Both the position numbers and the translations under genes were made by a program. Below, in pieces: positions 3,867 through 63,246 of a stretch of DNA of 64,000 nucleotides. This DNA is from Idiomarinaceae bacterium HL-53 (GTDB lineage Bacteria > Pseudomonadota > Gammaproteobacteria > Enterobacterales > Alteromonadaceae): contig LN899469.1 of the NCBI GenBank assembly GCA_001458075.1, positions 2,144,659 through 2,208,658 on the forward strand, given 5' to 3'. The number at the start of each line of letters is the position of its first letter. Position 1 is the stretch's first letter. The notes beneath the pieces were generated by a model that searched no databases, had not been told where the DNA came from, and saw nothing but the letters and a program-made list of their open reading frames with translations.

Positions 3867-3943
3867 CGGCGTGTAGCGCAGCTTGGTAGCGCACTGTCAT
3901 GGGGTGTCAGGGGTCGGAGGTTCAAATCCTCTCACGCCGACCA
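3867..3943 (+). tRNA. tRNA-Pro, anticodon GGG
   Basis: This 77-base gene folds as a full cloverleaf. Acceptor strands CGGCGTG and CACGCCG pair, followed by discriminator A and encoded CCA. The D arm reads GCGCAGCTTGGTAGCGC, the anticodon loop is ATGGGGT, and the T loop is TTCAAAT. The anticodon stem carries the same T-T mismatch as E. coli proL. The 3' part from base 3891 is duplicated at 9361-9416, so the intact gene lies at the left junction of the integrated island. Confidence 0.96.
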
Positions 3944-3946
3944 ATT
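3891..3946 (+). repeat. attL, 56-bp direct repeat within tRNA-Pro
   Basis: Bases 3891-3946 are identical to 9361-9416. They run from the anticodon stem through the T arm and CCA into the next three bases. The flanking bases differ on both sides, so the repeat ends are well defined. This is the left attachment-site product of integrase action. Confidence 0.95.
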
Positions 3947-4028
3947 CTCTACAACCCTCTACACTATTGACTTTTATGGTCATACCCTTTAAAAATACAT
4001 CCATTCTAAACTGCTGAGAACCCCGATC

Positions 4029-4060
4029 TGGGTCACTTTCTGGGTCACCTTTTGGGTCAC
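4029..4060 (+). repeat. three TGGGTCAC repeats at 12-bp period (left arm sites)
   Basis: TGGGTCAC occurs at 4029-4036, 4041-4048 and 4053-4060, exactly 12 bases apart, between attL and the integrase gene. The same motif with the same period is found just inside attR. The location and pairing suggest arm-type binding sites for the integrase or an accessory protein; they could also regulate the integrase promoter, which must lie here. Confidence 0.7.
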
Positions 4061-4100
4061 TATCAGCTCTATTTGCATCAAACTTTATCTAGACAAGAGA

Positions 4101-5507
4101 ATGGATAAGAAATACCTCAAACAAGCGTCATCAGGCTTATGGCTGTACAGACGAAAAACCCCTGTCCTGCTGAAAGATAAGTACGAATCACCATACATTC
4201 AGTACACACTGCACACGCACAGTCATCATGAAGCAATCATCAAGCGCAACAAGATTAACGCTGATATTGACATGGAGCTACACCACGCGAAGCATGGGAG
4301 CACAGACAAGTCTAAGTTCTATTATTACTACACCCCTTGGAGACGAGAGCGGCTAGCGCGTGCTGACGAACCGTACATTGAAGAAATAGAACAAGGCGTG
4401 GGCGTTAGAAAGTTCCACCCAATGGAGGAAGCTGACGTAGAATCCGTAATCGATAACCCCGAAGACAAGAACAACCCAACCGTATACGCTGCGTGGTCTG
4501 CTGCAAAGACAGGGAACATTCCCGATGAATTCCAGCCAACAATCAAAGAGCTAGCCGATGAATGGTCTGTTTGGGCTGAAGACAAGAAGAACTCAAAGTA
4601 CATCTCAGCTATGAGCACCTATGTGAAGGCGCTAGTCGCTTACTTGGGAGGTGACGAGTTGCCATTCAATGCATCTTCAGGTAAAGCTCAGCTATTCATT
4701 GATGAACTACTCACTCAAGGTAAATCAGCGAATACCGTTACCCATTACAAGAGCAAGCTTCAGGAGCTTTGGCGCTGGTCTCTAACGAGAGAGAAAACTA
4801 AAGGTGAAAATCCTTGGTTGAATACTAAGGTCGAAGCCAGTCGCAAGCAGAGCAAGCCTAACCATTACAGAAACTTCAGTGACTCTGAGCTAGCGCACAT
4901 ACTCAATGAGACGCAGTACGACAAACTACAGGCTTCCTCTTGGACTTATCCGTACGCTTTACACGTACTGCCCCGACTACTTCCCTTTCTTGGTACACGC
5001 CTCAGCGAGCTTGCCAAGGCTAAAACCGAACAGTTCGTAGAGGTTGACGGTCGGCTTTTCTTTGAGGTCAGAGGAGGTAAAACTGTCAACGCTGAACGCA
5101 TAGTACCTGTATGCCCAGCTATTACGAGCTTTGTACAGGAGGTCATTCGCAGTGCTGGAGATTCACCTTGGCTATTCCCTGAGATTGCTAATGCTGAGAT
5201 AGGCGCAGATAAAGCCGTAAACAGCATATCCTCGAAGTTCGGCAAAATAACCAAAGGCTTCGGCAAGGTCGAAGGCTACAAGACAGGGCTGCATTCATTC
5301 AGAGGACACTTCGCTACCGCACTTGAGCAAATAGGTTGCCCTGAAGACGTAGCAAGCAAGTTAGCAGGACACAAAGGCCTCACATTGACATACAGCCTTT
5401 ACAGCAAACACAAAGACGAGGACAAGCTTTGGCGGTACATCGAAAGGATGCATGAAGCTGACTGTTTGAGACCGCTAGTACCGCTTCAGGATAGCGCTGC
5501 TGCTTAA
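4101..5507 (+). CDS. int: tyrosine recombinase / island integrase
   Basis: A 468-residue site-specific recombinase that would integrate and excise the island at tRNA-Pro. The C-terminal catalytic domain shows R300 (LGTRLSELA), K327 (RGGKTVN), H398 and R401 (LHSFRGHF), H424 (LAGHKG) and the likely nucleophile Y434 (TYSLYSK). A SAM-like core-binding region lies around residues 145-235. The N-terminal 60 residues (LYRRKTPVLLKDKY) resemble the arm-type domain of integrases that recognise outer sites. All catalytic residues are present, so it may be active. The ATG at 4101 follows a weak ribosome-binding sequence, AAGAGA. It is transcribed away from attL. No excisionase gene is recognisable nearby. 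Confidence 0.93.
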   Translation: MDKKYLKQASSGLWLYRRKTPVLLKDKYESPYIQYTLHTHSHHEAIIKRNKINADIDMELHHAKHGSTDKSKFYYYYTPWRRERLARADEPYIEEIEQGVGVRKFHPMEEADVESVIDNPEDKNNPTVYAAWSAAKTGNIPDEFQPTIKELADEWSVWAEDKKNSKYISAMSTYVKALVAYLGGDELPFNASSGKAQLFIDELLTQGKSANTVTHYKSKLQELWRWSLTREKTKGENPWLNTKVEASRKQSKPNHYRNFSDSELAHILNETQYDKLQASSWTYPYALHVLPRLLPFLGTRLSELAKAKTEQFVEVDGRLFFEVRGGKTVNAERIVPVCPAITSFVQEVIRSAGDSPWLFPEIANAEIGADKAVNSISSKFGKITKGFGKVEGYKTGLHSFRGHFATALEQIGCPEDVASKLAGHKGLTLTYSLYSKHKDEDKLWRYIERMHEADCLRPLVPLQDSAAA

Positions 5508-5527
5508 AGTCACTCGTGTTGACCTGA

Positions 5528-5595
5528 AAGCATTTTACTCAAAAAAATCTGTGGGGGTTCTCGATACAAGGAAACGCTGAGTTCCCCCCCCATGT
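5528..5595. other. short gap with imperfect G/C-run hairpin
   Basis: Between the convergent integrase and the minus-strand cargo operon, GGGGGTTCTC (near 5554) can pair imperfectly with GAGTTCCCCC (near 5579). No clear T-run follows on either strand. It may act as a weak bidirectional transcription barrier; nothing else is seen in this 116-bp gap. Confidence 0.3.
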
Positions 5596-5623
5596 GGTAC
5601 CGTTGTAAGACTTAACGAAATGC

Positions 5624-6244
5624 CTATGATGAGCTTTTGTTGAAAGCCGCCTTCAAGTCCCTCGCTACCTCAGAGGGTTCTATGTGCCCAGATTTCTCTA
5701 TCGCGCTTATCACCGTAGACAAAAAGGCCTGTTTGCTCTGTTCACTAGAGTCCTTGAGGAGCTTTCCCACTTGAGCCGTCAGTTTTTCGTTATCGACTTT
5801 CGCCCTCTCCTGTCTGTCTTGTTCTACCATCCCTCTCTGCCAGCTAACTGTGCTGAGTACTGAATATATAGCTGCGTCAGTTAGTTTACCCTCAACCTTT
5901 AGCTGCTTCGACATTTCTCCGTAAATCAGCGAGTGCTCAACGAAAACCATTTCTCGACTTGGCCGCTTACCACTAATTCCCTCTGAGACCATTCTATTCA
6001 AAACAGACCATGCTTCGTCGTTACGCTTCGCTAATAACAAATACTGAGGAAGCTTTAAGTATGCAGCTGATGCCAGCACTACGTCTTCGACAACCGCTGA
6101 TTCGTGTGCCTTACTAATGGCTTGGATGGCTTCATCAAGCTTGCCCTCCGACTTTAATTTTGTCGCCTGCTTTAACCATTCAGAACTTGACCGCGCTTCT
6201 GTCTGTCGCTTGCTGTTCAAGCCCAAGAGTTTACCAAAAACCAT
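5624..6244 (-). CDS. unrecognised helical-repeat-like protein (island cargo)
   Basis: I do not recognise this 206-residue protein. It is predicted soluble, with no signal peptide or membrane segment. Residues 20-75 (EWLKQATKLKSEGKLDEAIQ, then a second helix pair with YLKLPQYLLLAKRNDEAWSVL) have the spacing of TPR-like helical hairpins. Residues 140-205 are lysine- and glutamate-rich helix, probably coiled coil. It is the second gene of a minus-strand pair with the lipoprotein, 10 bases downstream, with its own strong ribosome-binding sequence (AAGGAGGGG). The ATG at 6244 fits that sequence. As island cargo it could serve the element or modify the host; no function is assigned. Confidence 0.75.
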   Translation of the reverse strand: MVFGKLLGLNSKRQTEARSSSEWLKQATKLKSEGKLDEAIQAISKAHESAVVEDVVLASAAYLKLPQYLLLAKRNDEAWSVLNRMVSEGISGKRPSREMVFVEHSLIYGEMSKQLKVEGKLTDAAIYSVLSTVSWQRGMVEQDRQERAKVDNEKLTAQVGKLLKDSSEQSKQAFLSTVISAIEKSGHIEPSEVARDLKAAFNKSSS

Positions 6245-6254
6245 TTACCCCTCC

Positions 6255-6599
6255 TTAATCAAGACCTTTGAGCGAACTACAGGCACTCTCACCTTTCGAC
6301 AGCAACAGGACATTTCTGTGCTGACAAAGCTCAACCCAACCAGATAGATTCCCATCTTGTACAGATGAGGCAAAACCCTCCGCTTCGTTAGTCGCACTAG
6401 AAGCGTTTTCGTAAAGATAAACCTCTACTCGGTCACTTGCCCAGTGACCACTCCAGCCATCAGTAGCATTCACCATTTGATACAGTTGCTGCTGGTCTTT
6501 TTGAAAACCATTAGCTTCTAATTCGGATAATGTTAGTTGGCTCTCTGATGAGCATCCTGCGAGTAAGACCACTAGTCCCAACATTACTGTGCGTTTCAT
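6255..6599 (-). CDS. small predicted lipoprotein (island cargo)
   Basis: A 114-residue protein starting MKRTVMLGLVVLLAGCSSES: a basic N-terminus, a hydrophobic stretch and lipobox LAGC with Cys16, so it is predicted to be lipidated and exported. Serines after the cysteine would allow sorting to the outer membrane. The mature part has no domain I recognise; it contains several aromatic residues and two further cysteines near the C-terminus that could form a disulfide. AGGAG precedes the ATG on the minus strand. It is the first gene of a two-gene operon with the helical-repeat-like protein and diverges from the serine recombinase across a motif-rich 216-bp region. Confidence 0.78.
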   Translation of the reverse strand: MKRTVMLGLVVLLAGCSSESQLTLSELEANGFQKDQQQLYQMVNATDGWSGHWASDRVEVYLYENASSATNEAEGFASSVQDGNLSGWVELCQHRNVLLLSKGESACSSLKGLD

Positions 6600-6625
6600 T
6601 CCCTTGCTCCTGTGTTTGTATGCGC

Positions 6626-6801
6626 GTGTATCCTTGACTTGTTTAAGCTACTCGCTCTTGAATGGTTAGTAAAGGCAGAGAGCGCACCAACAGAGTACGC
6701 TTGGTGATACACGCTGAATGGAACACAAAAAGTGTATCAATAGCATTGATTTTTAATAATGATACACATAATATATATGACTCTAGAACTGATTGGTACA
6801 C
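6626..6801. promoter_or_regulatory. five GTGTATC/GATACAC motifs between divergent genes
   Basis: TGATACAC occurs at 6705-6712 and 6760-6767, its complement GTGTATCA at 6732-6739, and near copies GTGTATC at 6626-6632 and TGGTACAC at 6794-6801. The pair 6705-6739 forms a 35-bp inverted repeat. The copy at 6760-6767 falls between the probable -35 and -10 of the recombinase promoter. The set could be operators for both divergent units, or recombination subsites bound by the serine recombinase itself. Confidence 0.6.
6746..6774 (+). promoter_or_regulatory. probable promoter of the serine recombinase
   Basis: TTGATT (6746-6751), a 17-base spacer and TAATAT (6769-6774) lie 42 bases ahead of the start codon. 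A TGATACAC motif occupies the end of the spacer, as expected for a repressed or self-regulated promoter. Confidence 0.5.
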
Positions 6802-6815
6802 TTTAAGGAGTCATT

Positions 6816-7385
6816 ATGGAGAGAATCGGTTACATTCGTGTGTCATCTGTAGGTCAGAACACAGAGCGCCAGCTAAGCGGCTTAGAGTTTGACCGTGTGT
6901 TCACTGATAAATGCTCAGGGTCAACGGTAGACCGCCCAGAGTTGAAGCGTTTACTTGACCATGTACGCGAGGGAGACGCTGTGTATGTCCATAGCATTGA
7001 CCGTATGGCTCGTGACTTAAAGAACCTGCTAGAGCTTATCGACTACTTCAAGTCCAAAGGCGTAGACATTCACTTCGTTAAGGAGGGGCTGAGCTACACG
7101 CCTAATCATTCAAACCCTATGCAAGACATGATGCTACAGGTAATGGGCGCTGTGAGTCAGTTTGAGCGTGCTCTGATACGTGAGCGCCAGCGAGAAGGCA
7201 TTGAACAAGCCAAAGCTAAAGGCGTTTACAAGGGCAGTAAGAAGACGATAGATCGGGAGAAGGTCTTGGAGATGCTCAATCAGGGCATTAAGAAGGCTGA
7301 GATAGCCCGTAAGCTGGGCATAGGCCGTGTCTCAGTGTATCGCGTGATTGATGAACTGAAAGACCAAGGCAAGATTGTAGCGTAG
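6816..7385 (+). CDS. serine recombinase, resolvase/invertase family
   Basis: A 189-residue small serine recombinase of the Pin/Tn3-resolvase type. The N-terminal catalytic domain begins ERIGYIRVSS with R8 and nucleophile S10; R63 and R66 occur in DRMARDL; a long E-helix region follows (residues 103-130). The C-terminal part (about 145-185) is a helix-turn-helix, AEIARKLGIGRVSVYRV. Length and domain order are normal, so it may be active. AAGGAG precedes the ATG. Its target sites are unknown; the motif cluster immediately upstream is the best candidate. In this element it could resolve multimers, invert a segment or act as a regulator; only the family assignment is firm. Confidence 0.93.
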   Translation: MERIGYIRVSSVGQNTERQLSGLEFDRVFTDKCSGSTVDRPELKRLLDHVREGDAVYVHSIDRMARDLKNLLELIDYFKSKGVDIHFVKEGLSYTPNHSNPMQDMMLQVMGAVSQFERALIRERQREGIEQAKAKGVYKGSKKTIDREKVLEMLNQGIKKAEIARKLGIGRVSVYRVIDELKDQGKIVA

Positions 7386-7669
7386 AACGATCTGAGACGA
7401 TCTGTATGAGGCTCTGAGAGCGCAACCAATACCATCGTTAATACAAGAGCTTACAGAGCCTCTGAGAGACGCACTGGCGTCCTACCCTGCTATTTTCTTA
7501 TTACAACTAAACACTCTCTGAGTGAGTACAACAAGGCAAATAATTTACCTTTGAGAACCACATAACCAATACGCCTGAAACCCTTGGTACACAAGGCCTT
7601 CGCAGGTCACGCACCTCAAGAGGGAAACGAAAAGACAATGAAAAGAAAACTTTAAGATAACACTAGATA

Positions 7670-7778
7670 CTATAAGTCTTCTTTAAGTCATCTCTAAGCC
7701 TACTTTAAGTTATCTATAAGTAGACTATAAGTCTTATCTATTATTAATTAATAACAATAAGTAAAGACTATAAGTCTT
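7670..7778 (+). repeat. 11-bp iteron-like tandem array
   Basis: Six head-to-tail 11-bp units start at 7670, 7681, 7692, 7703, 7714 and 7725, with consensus CTWTAAGTCWT. Units 1 and 6 are identical (CTATAAGTCTT), and a further exact copy lies at 7768-7778 after a 25-bp AT-rich tract. A related CTTTAAGATAA is at 7650-7660. An 11-bp period places every unit on about the same face of the helix. This is the form of a plasmid-type iteron origin or of a cooperative repressor site. Confidence 0.75.
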
Positions 7779-7779
7779 A

Positions 7780-7842
7780 CTACTGGTAGACCTAAAGCCA
7801 GTACTGAGTGCCTTAAAGCTGATACTTTAGGTAGTCCAGTAG
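7780..7842. repeat. 18-bp imperfect inverted repeat
   Basis: CTACTGGTAGACCTAAAG (7780-7797) pairs with CTTTAGGTAGTCCAGTAG (7825-7842) at 15 of 18 positions. The three mismatches are grouped in the middle, and the loop is 27 bases. It begins two bases after the last iteron copy. It could form a DNA cruciform or an RNA stem with an internal bulge. Confidence 0.6.
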
Positions 7843-7995
7843 CTGCCTGTAATCGACCTCTCAAGGTAGGTTGTACTGATTAGACGACACACACTACAAC
7901 ACCAGCTTAGCGTGTATCTTAGCGCCAGCTCGAAGTGCTCATTTCGTCTGTAATTTAATCAGTGTTACCTCCCCTATGACCTCCTAAGAATACTA

Positions 7996-8043
7996 AGCCC
8001 TGACACCGCGTCTGACATGATGCCGTGTTGGGGCTTTTTTTTT
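7996..8043 (+). terminator. strong rho-independent terminator without an upstream gene
   Basis: AGCCCTGACAC (7996-8006) pairs with GTGTTGGGGCT (8025-8035), with G-T wobbles, and is followed by nine T residues. The nearest upstream plus-strand gene ends 610 bases earlier. It either ends the recombinase transcript after a very long trailer or ends a non-coding RNA made from this segment. Confidence 0.75.
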
Positions 8044-8130
8044 CGCTCCTGTATAAAAAACGTACATTCACACTAGCTACTCATTAATGATTTATACTCA
8101 TAAGTCACTGTATTTAAAAGATTAAATGTA

Positions 8131-8158
8131 TTGACTGTATGTGAGTCATGTAGATAAT
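8131..8158 (+). promoter_or_regulatory. promoter of the 67-residue protein gene
   Basis: TTGACT (8131-8136), a 16-base spacer and GATAAT (8153-8158) match consensus at four or five of six positions each, 39 bases ahead of the ATG. The spacer holds TGAGTCAT (8142-8149), a near match to the TGGGTCAC end repeats. Confidence 0.6.
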
Positions 8159-8197
8159 TAATCGTCTCTATCATAACAACGAACTAAAGAGGCACCC

Positions 8198-8401
8198 ATG
8201 AGTTCACAGCTACACCATCTTAACGCCACCATTGATGACTTAATGACCGCTTATGATTATGACTACAAAGCCTTAGCGCGTGAATACAGCGAACAACCTG
8301 AAGCACTTGAAGACCTGCTACGCGCAATGGATGACTTACAACAAGTTGTCGATGCGGCCAAGACTACGTTCAGCTTTGAGACGATCTGTAGGCCGCTATA
8401 A
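8198..8401 (+). CDS. small acidic protein of unknown function
   Basis: I do not recognise this 67-residue protein. It is acidic and predicted almost wholly helical, with no signal peptide or membrane segment (MSSQLHHLNATIDDLMTAYD at the start). A good promoter sits upstream and AAAGAGG precedes the ATG, so expression is plausible. It is followed by a hairpin and then the KilA-N gene. Small acidic proteins at this position in mobile elements are often regulators or inhibitors, but nothing in the sequence proves that. The last 24 bases of the gene include a 14-bp sequence shared with the region just after the serine recombinase gene. Confidence 0.6.
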   Translation: MSSQLHHLNATIDDLMTAYDYDYKALAREYSEQPEALEDLLRAMDDLQQVVDAAKTTFSFETICRPL

Positions 8402-8422
8402 GACCACTCAGAACTAAAACAC

Positions 8423-8458
8423 GCCTCAGTGACTCAAAGTGGTTACTGGGGCTTCTCT
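8423..8458 (+). terminator. hairpin between small gene and KilA-N gene
   Basis: GCCTCAGTGAC (8423-8433) pairs, with wobbles, with GTTACTGGGGC (8442-8452), followed by TTCTCT. The T-run is poor, so it probably attenuates rather than stops transcription. Confidence 0.45.
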
Positions 8459-8492
8459 AATTGCCTCCTTGTCCAGCATAAGGAGTAACAAC

Positions 8493-9071
8493 ATGAAATT
8501 AGAAGTCACTATAACCTTTGAAGGTACTACCGCAACTATCACCTCTAACGATGACGGAATGTTCGATCTGAATGACATCTGGCGTGATTTTGATTTACGC
8601 GCAACGCAAGCGCCTAGCCAGTGGCGTGACAAGGTAAAAGCTCATCTGGTTAGCTCTGCAAATTTGCAGACCATAAATGGACGAGGCGGTAAGACGTTAG
8701 CAACACTGGATGCGCTCTACGCATACGCCATGTGGGTAGACGTTAAATTCTATATGGTAGTTGTCGCTGCGTTTTCTGCGTTAACACGCGGTGACACTGA
8801 GGAAGCGCAACGTATCGCTAATATGTGTGTGGACTTACGAGAGTCACTACGCGCCACGCACGAAGAAACTACTGACCAGATACGTGTCTCTGCTCGCTCA
8901 GGTAAGTTAGGTATGCACGAGCAACACGGCCATACCAATATCATGCGGCTTATCTGTAAACGTGCCACTGGCTTGAACCCTAACGAGTTCCAGAAGAAGT
9001 ACGGCCTGCGCCCACGTGACGCTATGGCGTTCGTACAAAACTTGAGCGCTATGGAAATATCCATACCGTAA
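8493..9071 (+). CDS. KilA-N domain protein (probably frameshifted)
   Basis: A 192-residue protein with an N-terminal KilA-N domain (about residues 22-95): LNDIWRDF, APSQWRDKVKAHL, and then LQTINGRGGKTLATLDALYAYAMWVD. KilA-N is a DNA-binding module of phage regulators and antirepressors. The ATG at 8493 follows AAGGAG; an upstream in-frame ATG at 8439 has none. The frame stops at 9071, but the -1 frame continues to 9175 with a second copy of the same KilA-N core, so the intact gene probably encoded two KilA-N modules. As it stands the product keeps only the first. A role in controlling the island is inferred from the family. Confidence 0.75.
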   Translation: MKLEVTITFEGTTATITSNDDGMFDLNDIWRDFDLRATQAPSQWRDKVKAHLVSSANLQTINGRGGKTLATLDALYAYAMWVDVKFYMVVVAAFSALTRGDTEEAQRIANMCVDLRESLRATHEETTDQIRVSARSGKLGMHEQHGHTNIMRLICKRATGLNPNEFQKKYGLRPRDAMAFVQNLSAMEISIP

Positions 9072-9175
9072 ACGGTGACGGTGGTTCAACGTACGGCAAC
9101 AAGAAGGCTCTCTACAACTACGCCGCTTGGGTTGACTACGAGTTCCACGATGCGATGTTCTCAATAGTCTTTTAA
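9035..9175 (+). pseudogene. out-of-frame second KilA-N module
   Basis: Reading the -1 frame from about 9035 gives KLERYGNIHTVNGDGGSTY, then ALYNYAAWVDYEFHDAMF, ending at a TAA at 9173-9175. It aligns with the first module (NLQTINGRGGKT, ALYAYAMWVDVKFY). The frames meet at a run of four A residues in GTACAAAACTTG, so one gained or lost base would join them. No start codon or ribosome-binding site serves this part alone. Confidence 0.6.
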
Positions 9176-9268: not shown

Positions 9269-9300
9269 TGAGTCATTGTCTGGGTCACTTTTAGGGTCAC
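9269..9300 (+). repeat. TGGGTCAC repeats at 12-bp period (right arm sites)
   Basis: TGGGTCAC at 9281-9288 and AGGGTCAC at 9293-9300 are 12 bases apart, and a weaker TGAGTCAT sits 12 bases earlier at 9269-9276. This mirrors the triple array at the left end in motif, period and orientation. Confidence 0.65.
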
Positions 9301-9360: not shown

Positions 9361-9416
9361 GCACTGTCATGGGGTGTCAGGGGTCGGAGGTTCAAATCCT
9401 CTCACGCCGACCAATT
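9361..9416 (+). repeat. attR, 56-bp copy of the tRNA-Pro 3' part
   Basis: Identical to 3891-3946. It lacks the acceptor 5' strand and D arm, so it is not a functional tRNA. It marks the right boundary of the island; chromosomal sequence resumes at 9417. Confidence 0.95.
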
Positions 9417-62895: not shown

Positions 62896-63197
62896 TCTTG
62901 AGGCTCTTGTTGAATCGGTGGAAGTTGTGCCGGGATCATTCGAAAAAAAGTTTCGTTCGCTTTCACTAAGCCAAGTTCGTTGCGAGCACGTTCTTCTATG
63001 GCTTCATGAGCATGCCTCAAATCTTCAATATCAGCGAACATCAGCTGGTTACGCTGCCTTACCGTTGCATTCGCCTCTTTTTGTCGCTCGACTTCTCGCG
63101 AAAGTTGACGAATGTCACGCGCCCCATATTCTCCAAACCAAACTCGGTATTGGAGCAGCAAGAGTAGAGTGAGCATTATCAAGGTCAATATTCGCAT
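62892..63197 (-). CDS. ftsB: cell-division protein FtsB
   Basis: A bitopic inner-membrane division protein that works with FtsL and FtsQ. The 101-residue protein has one transmembrane segment (ILTLIMLTLLLLLQYRVWFG, residues 3-22) and a coiled coil (DIRQLSREVERQKEANATVRQRN) before a periplasmic tail with ERARNELGLVKANETFF. The eno-ftsB-ispD order is standard in gammaproteobacteria, but here an extra gene lies between eno and ftsB. Confidence 0.93.
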   Translation of the reverse strand: MRILTLIMLTLLLLLQYRVWFGEYGARDIRQLSREVERQKEANATVRQRNQLMFADIEDLRHAHEAIEERARNELGLVKANETFFRMIPAQLPPIQQEPQE

Positions 63198-63246
63198 GCA
63201 TAAACCGCCTTGCTTTTATTATTGACCTATTATGACCCCTTTCGAA

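Follow-up and report, generated by a model that had tools for sequence, protein, structure and literature searches.

The array and the island that carries it

What does an array of short, tandem, closely spaced repeats do in a mobile element that encodes no recognizable replication protein? The question is raised by a small integrative island of Idiomarinaceae bacterium HL-53, which we analyzed within a stretch of 64,000 nucleotides (the window). The island is 5.47 kb long, lies at a tRNA-Pro gene, and is bounded by identical 56-bp direct repeats that are 5,470 bp apart. Its features, as read from the sequence and from Pfam and PHROGs scans, are as follows.

3891-3946, plus strand: left attachment repeat, a 56-bp direct repeat formed by the 3' end of tRNA-Pro GGG (3867-3943)
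4027-4061, plus strand: 12-bp repeats TCTGGGTCACTT near the left end, putative integrase arm sites
4101-5507, plus strand: tyrosine integrase, 468 aa (Pfam PF00589, 5.2e-10; phrog_1, 3.2e-30)
5624-6244, minus strand: 206-aa protein, with no Pfam or PHROGs family reaching its cutoff
6255-6599, minus strand: 114-aa putative lipoprotein, lipobox read by eye (phrog_1119, E = 0.0072)
6626-6801, no strand assigned: five half-site-like words (GTGTATC/GATACAC/GTACAC) upstream of the serine recombinase gene
6816-7385, plus strand: small serine recombinase (resolvase/invertase), 189 aa (PF00239, 2.4e-39; phrog_125, 2.1e-61)
8198-8401, plus strand: 67-aa open reading frame (ORF) (phrog_3550, E = 0.0046)
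8493-9071, plus strand: KilA-N domain protein, 192 aa from the ATG at 8493 (phrog_129, 5.5e-10)
9269-9300, plus strand: copies of TGAGTCATTGTC, TGGGTCACTTTT, and AGGGTCAC near the right end, putative integrase arm sites
9361-9416, plus strand: right attachment repeat, 56-bp direct repeat

The integrase additionally matches PF20172 at 1e-5, just under the cutoff of that family, and the KilA-N protein matches PF04383 at E = 0.001, likewise under the family cutoff; a frame-shifted remnant of a second KilA-N domain, listed as a second match, lies directly 3' of the KilA-N gene (9072-9174). The putative lipoprotein weakly resembles the Cor superinfection-exclusion family (the phrog_1119 match), and none of 195 other genomes of the family carries a match to the 206-aa protein. 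TGGGTCAC repeats at 12-bp spacing occur just inside both island ends (4027-4061 and 9269-9300), where they resemble integrase arm sites, and a 27-nt direct repeat (81% identity, with a 13-nt identical core) at 7393-7419 and 8377-8403 flanks the noncoding module together with the 67-residue ORF. The G+C content of the island is 45.6%, versus 46.5% in the rest of the window, and Rfam returned nothing above threshold on the island except the tRNA.

The combination of an integrase and attachment repeats with no capsid genes in the Pfam and PHROGs scans is that of phage satellites in general. The same scans recovered no Rep, primase, or helicase among the six island ORFs, as a preliminary description of this DNA had held, and hence no Rep gene adjoining the repeats of the kind that accompanies an iteron origin; the weak replication-type profile matches all fall on the helix-turn-helix part of the serine recombinase. 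The array itself lies in an 812-nt stretch that has no plus-strand ORF of at least 50 residues, between the serine recombinase gene and the 67-residue ORF. It comprises six gapless 11-bp units (7670-7735) and a seventh at 7768-7778.

7670, plus strand: unit 1, CTATAAGTCTT
7681, plus strand: unit 2, CTTTAAGTCAT
7692, plus strand: unit 3, CTCTAAGCCTA
7703, plus strand: unit 4, CTTTAAGTTAT
7714, plus strand: unit 5, CTATAAGTAGA
7725, plus strand: unit 6, CTATAAGTCTT, the same as unit 1
7736-7767, no strand assigned: AT-rich tract between units 6 and 7, read from the sequence
7768-7778, plus strand: unit 7, CTATAAGTCTT, identical to units 1 and 6
7779-8045, plus strand: strong predicted hairpins, with a terminator-like hairpin and T run at the end (-88.1 kcal/mol, z = -5.0)

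A direct reading of the sequence confirmed what had been described before, namely, six tandem units plus one more, the same in sequence as units 1 and 6, beyond an AT-rich tract. CTnTAAG is strictly conserved in the units, while the remaining four bases vary. The repetition is real and beyond chance: 37 of 55 positions match at a lag of 11, versus at most 32 in 2,000 first-order Markov sequences with the composition of the 812-nt intergenic stretch and at most 36 in 5,000 with that of the AT-rich 151 nt, the best score of each control sequence being taken across lags 9 to 13. TRF also detects the array, with periods of 11 and 22. Units 6 and 7 are 43 bp, or about 4.1 helical turns, apart, so that the seventh copy is only roughly in phase with the others. 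A scan of the host genome (2.74 Mb) for four TAAG words at 11-bp steps gave three overlapping matches, all within the array, and no further run.

Two local explanations were considered and rejected. The array is probably not the serine recombinase's own site, as the other half-site-like words, which may constitute the recombination site of that enzyme, lie upstream of its gene. Neither does a conserved structured RNA lie beside it: the hairpin stretch of the window (z = -5.0) is not common to the related island L350 described below, and 200-nt stretches gave z = +0.8 in L350 and z = -1.8 in a second relative, L351. A terminator-like site was found at 8011-8032, although the total number of such sites is not above that in shuffled sequences, and Rfam recovered nothing above threshold in the related islands L350, L351, and L402.

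A noncoding module shared with related islands

Searches of 16 other genomes of the genus with the integrase yielded no close relative (a single match at 28%), and those of 393 further genomes of the order yielded one, at 46%. The latter belongs to another tRNA-Pro island (L006, genome G063, at about 3.8 to 13.1 kb), which has an ORF that reads by eye as an HK97-type capsid protein and so is perhaps a capsid-forming satellite. Searches with the serine recombinase and the KilA-N protein led to five related islands, L350 (G563), L351 (G550), L402 (G052), L413 (G581), and L414 (G584), the first of which was found by both proteins. Four of the five adjoin a gene read by eye as groL. L413 and L414 carry genes read by eye as DNA cytosine methyltransferases, which suggests that the family may carry defense cargo.

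The integrase and the serine recombinase are present in all five related islands and are the only proteins of the window island of which this is true. KilA-N occurs in two (L350 and L414), and the 206-, 114-, and 67-aa proteins occur in none at E values of ≤0.01; a 28% alignment of the 67-aa ORF to a 64-aa ORF of L350 is not significant by tblastn. This distribution makes the KilA-N protein and the 67- and 206-residue products poor candidates for an initiator, contrary to the earlier suggestion that one of them serves the array.

Comparison of the noncoding DNA recovered two overlapping stretches in common with these islands.

7571-7633, plus strand: stretch just before the array, common to L351 (66 columns, 69.7%, E = 2.9e-4)
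7613-7746, plus strand: A-rich tract plus array, common to L350 (139 columns, 69.8%, E = 8e-10)

In L350, the A-rich tract is followed by four units at 12-bp spacing (CTATAAGACTAA, CTCTAAGACTGT, CTTTAAGACTAA, and CTCTAAGACTGT), and in L351, the 66-column match is followed by a degenerate run of the repeat. In shuffle tests run pair by pair, with 300 shuffles per island, none was as good as the match to L350 and one was as good as that to L351. L402 matches the module of the window in inverted orientation only (0 of 300 shuffles as good on any strand and 98 of 300 on the same strand). Three motifs lie within 60 bp of each other in L414, and L413 has no such cluster. Of 19 recombinase loci scanned on both strands, two, which are L351 and L350 themselves (as L331 and L335), have at least three motifs within 60 bp; in another 28 genome and 20 viral loci, such a cluster was found only in the window's own locus and in L402 (as L358), and eight other bacterial stretches (100.8 kb) had none. 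The word TAAG occurs about twice as often as expected in three of the modules, those of the window (12 versus 6.0), L350 (14 versus 7.3), and L351 (11 versus 5.6; P between 0.016 and 0.022 for each), but it is not enriched in the window island at 3947-7385 (14 versus 16.0 expected). An element similar to the 27-nt direct repeat mentioned above is present, inverted, in L350, and that copy matches Alteromonas phage PT11-V22 at 63197-63227.

By these comparisons, the array belongs to a module that has been kept, for which the case is best in three islands (those of the window, L350, and L351); KilA-N and the exact period both vary among the islands. The preliminary description had attached importance to an exact 11-bp phase. 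We reject such phasing as essential, because the related island L350 has the same element at 12 bp; the 12-bp version also recurs in T7-like viral loci (see below).

CTWTAAG arrays mark genome ends and origins of T7-like phages

A scan of the IMG/VR viral sequences for three CTWTAAG words at 11-bp steps recovered 39 stretches, and these, with a reversed-pattern control (18 stretches), were searched by tblastn with seven probes: the terL, terS, and RNA polymerase of T7, the terL of the viral locus L060, and the polymerase, helicase, and exonuclease of the viral locus L066. A T7-type probe matched 28 of the 39, 26 of them via terL or RNA polymerase, and none of the 18 controls; L066, one of the two without a terL or RNA polymerase match, is matched partly by its own proteins. 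The difference between 26 of 39 and 0 of 18 corresponds to a Fisher P value of 9.8e-7, although the loci are not independent and their relatedness inflates the counts. After clustering at 70% over 300 nt, any T7-type probe matched 12 of 20 clusters, versus 0 of 9 for the control (P = 0.0033), whose loci are shorter on average (6.9 versus 9.2 kb). In a further set of viral loci, retrieved for a different purpose, 1 of 20 matched, by a 43-bit terL match. The 12-bp version of the pattern gave 17 of 42 stretches with a probe match (6 of 18 clusters), 14 of them via terL or RNA polymerase, and the two periods pooled gave 15 of 35 clusters versus 0 of 9 (P = 0.018). A looser pattern of five TAAG words recovered 114 stretches, of which 20 matched the probes and many are plain tandem repeats.

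Most of these viral arrays sit shortly past terL or next to the RNA polymerase gene. Fourteen of the 39 11-bp arrays lie 100 to 325 nt beyond the end of the terL match, four lie 1.1 to 1.7 kb past it, and one lies 7.8 kb away; seven have the RNA polymerase match no more than 145 nt away, the array coming after it in five and before it in two. Among the 12-bp arrays, 10 of 42 lie 100 to 334 nt past the terL match. In the record of Escherichia coli phage ETEP21B, three CTTAAAG units follow the left terminal repeat (1-145) and lie between annotated promoters at 382-404 and 488-516, which we read as one phage and one host promoter, with TTGACT directly after the array. Phage T7 itself, which has no match to the 11-bp version, has TAAAG at 13-bp steps among its end repeats (177-334) and TTAAG at 5931, 5944, and 5953, just after promoter phi1.1B.

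The same pattern occurs in 115 stretches of the bacterial genome_contigs set, mostly as ordinary tandem repeats and many with identical units; among these there was one terL match and one match to what is apparently a host DNA polymerase. Variable spacers (0.5 or more), as in the island, characterize 18 of 28 arrays in the T7-like set versus 31 of 114 in bacterial contigs. The phage consensus CTWTAAG followed by A or T accommodates 88 of 96 units, and the island units fit it better than they fit the CTATAAGG repeats common in bacterial contigs. As a separate observation, 11-bp tandem repeats of CTATAAGGT(C/T) recur in Bacteroidetes contigs (e.g., L206, L209, and L222), often at several loci per genome.

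The island thus shares with T7-like phages (Autographiviridae) a CTWTAAG-like unit in tandem, at a spacing within 11 to 13 bp, in noncoding DNA. In the phages, CTWTAAG-type units repeat every 11 or 12 bp close to terL or to the RNA polymerase gene (in T7 itself, TAAAG every 13 bp). Unlike these phages, the island has no phage structural, terminase, or polymerase gene, and no sequence match beyond the repeat was found. As neither terL nor the RNA polymerase gene is present in the island by the Pfam and PHROGs scans, we describe its array as resembling the phage arrays and do not file it as one of them. A search with two core words, CACTATA and CACTAAAG, established no phage promoter-like sequence beside the island array: the one occurrence in the island is within the KilA-N gene, and L350 has one match just before its array.

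The preliminary description had proposed an origin served by a host, a helper phage, or an island protein. The helper-phage variant of that guess gains support, as T7-like phages carry this unit at this spacing in the regions of their genome ends and origins, but the helper itself was not found. No match in IMG/VR was obtained with a pattern drawn from the conserved stretch that precedes the array, and BLAST searches with three modules against 50,697 phage records gave chance-level matches only; one 31-nt stretch of the L350 module matches (93.5%, E = 0.007) Alteromonas phage PT11-V22, which is classed as Myoalterovirus and is not T7-like. Searches with the integrase and KilA-N proteins returned no relatives in IMG/VR, and those with the integrase returned none in genome_contigs. 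When the island was compared with phage and plasmid DNA, nothing matched except the tRNA end and parts of the recombinase gene, while the KilA-N protein matched two records of one Vibrio phage (33%) and no plasmid.

Other readings of the array

The strongest rival to a helper-dependent role is that the array is a promoter element, that is, either a phased, A/T-rich UP element that acts on a nearby promoter or an operator at which protein is bound side by side on one helix face. Direct repeats of 11 bp are bound by regulators of the OmpR/PhoB type, the ETEP21B array sits between two annotated promoters with TTGACT directly after it, and in two other genomes 11-bp TAAG runs lie immediately upstream of genes that read by eye as TonB-dependent receptors (L320, near 5870, and L321, near 8480). 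There is, however, no convincing sigma-70 site for the island array, with three promoter-like matches in 6600-8600 versus 3.3 expected; the period is not the same in the two islands (11 here and 12 in L350), each of which has A-rich DNA next to the array; and the lack of a second four-TAAG array in the host genome makes a host regulator with many such sites unlikely. On balance, we consider a promoter element rather unlikely.

Less probable again, and in our estimate improbable, is an iteron origin of the plasmid type that the host or an unrecognized island initiator would fire, with no phage involved. The repeats and the AT-rich tract in an island without a known Rep fit such an origin, and the PLE satellite of Vibrio cholerae offers the precedent of a noncoding iteron region bound by its RepA (PMC7145576). 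Against it, the integrase and the serine recombinase are the only proteins present in all five related islands, and both have other likely sites; the T7-like association would also be left unexplained. A neutral AT-rich tandem repeat with an accidental resemblance to phage arrays is very unlikely, for although the pattern does occur in bacterial genomes, in the 115 stretches noted above, L350 retains both the array and the A-rich tract, and within the units CTnTAAG stays fixed as the remaining bases change.

A satellite-like island that may use a T7-like helper

We tentatively favor, as the leading explanation but still with less than even confidence, the reading that the array is a cis-acting part of a satellite-like island that resembles the end/origin arrays of T7-like phages and serves replication or packaging by a helper. 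From the array, the island borders, the lack of a recognizable Rep, the module-bearing relatives, in which KilA-N is not constant and the 67- and 206-residue proteins were not found, and the T7-like association, we infer every step of the following mobilization route. (i) Upon infection by a T7-like phage, the island would be excised by its own integrase. (ii) The helper would copy the island, whose array, together with the AT-rich tract, would supply an origin or end region of the helper's type. (iii) The helper would package the island as concatemers, seven copies of which would amount to 38.3 kb, the size of a T7-like genome. (iv) In the next cell, the serine recombinase would resolve the concatemer into monomers; its presence in all five relatives fits such a role. 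(v) The resolved monomers would integrate at tRNA-Pro. The array may serve replication, packaging, or early transcription, as T7-like phages have such arrays in all three kinds of place.

Known satellites offer partial parallels. Like the PICMI satellites of Vibrionaceae (PMC10803314), the island is a very small integrative element of marine type without capsid genes; PICMI115 of Vibrio has 6,110 bp and is packaged as 8-copy concatemers in its virulent helper. Unlike PICMI, which has int, alpA, and a primase gene and sits beside fis (PMC10803314), the island lies at tRNA-Pro and not next to fis, and no match to alpA or a primase was found among its six ORFs by the Pfam and PHROGs scans. With PLE, the replication of which needs a noncoding repeat region together with phage functions (PMC7145576), we propose a likeness in kind; PLE, however, encodes its own RepA_N initiator (PMC7145576), and no such initiator was recognized in the island.

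A wider generalization, which we regard as possible but doubtful, is that minimal initiator-less islands of marine gammaproteobacteria are satellites of T7-like virulent phages, with a helper-type array as the sole replication or packaging signal and a serine recombinase that breaks the concatemers. Small islands and satellites are already known; a family of islands that lacks an initiator and carries a T7-like end array would be a further variety of them. No paper on satellites of such phages came up in the open-access literature searched, the coverage of which is partial and does not prove their absence.

The array suggests, short of proof, that the element borrows a T7-like virus for its copying or spread. 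If this is true, an integrative island would use the end repeats of T7-like phages as its mobilization signal, and T7-like phages would gain a group of satellites. The function of these end repeats is, to our knowledge, unsettled, and the island would then provide a natural test of what they do in T7-like phages.
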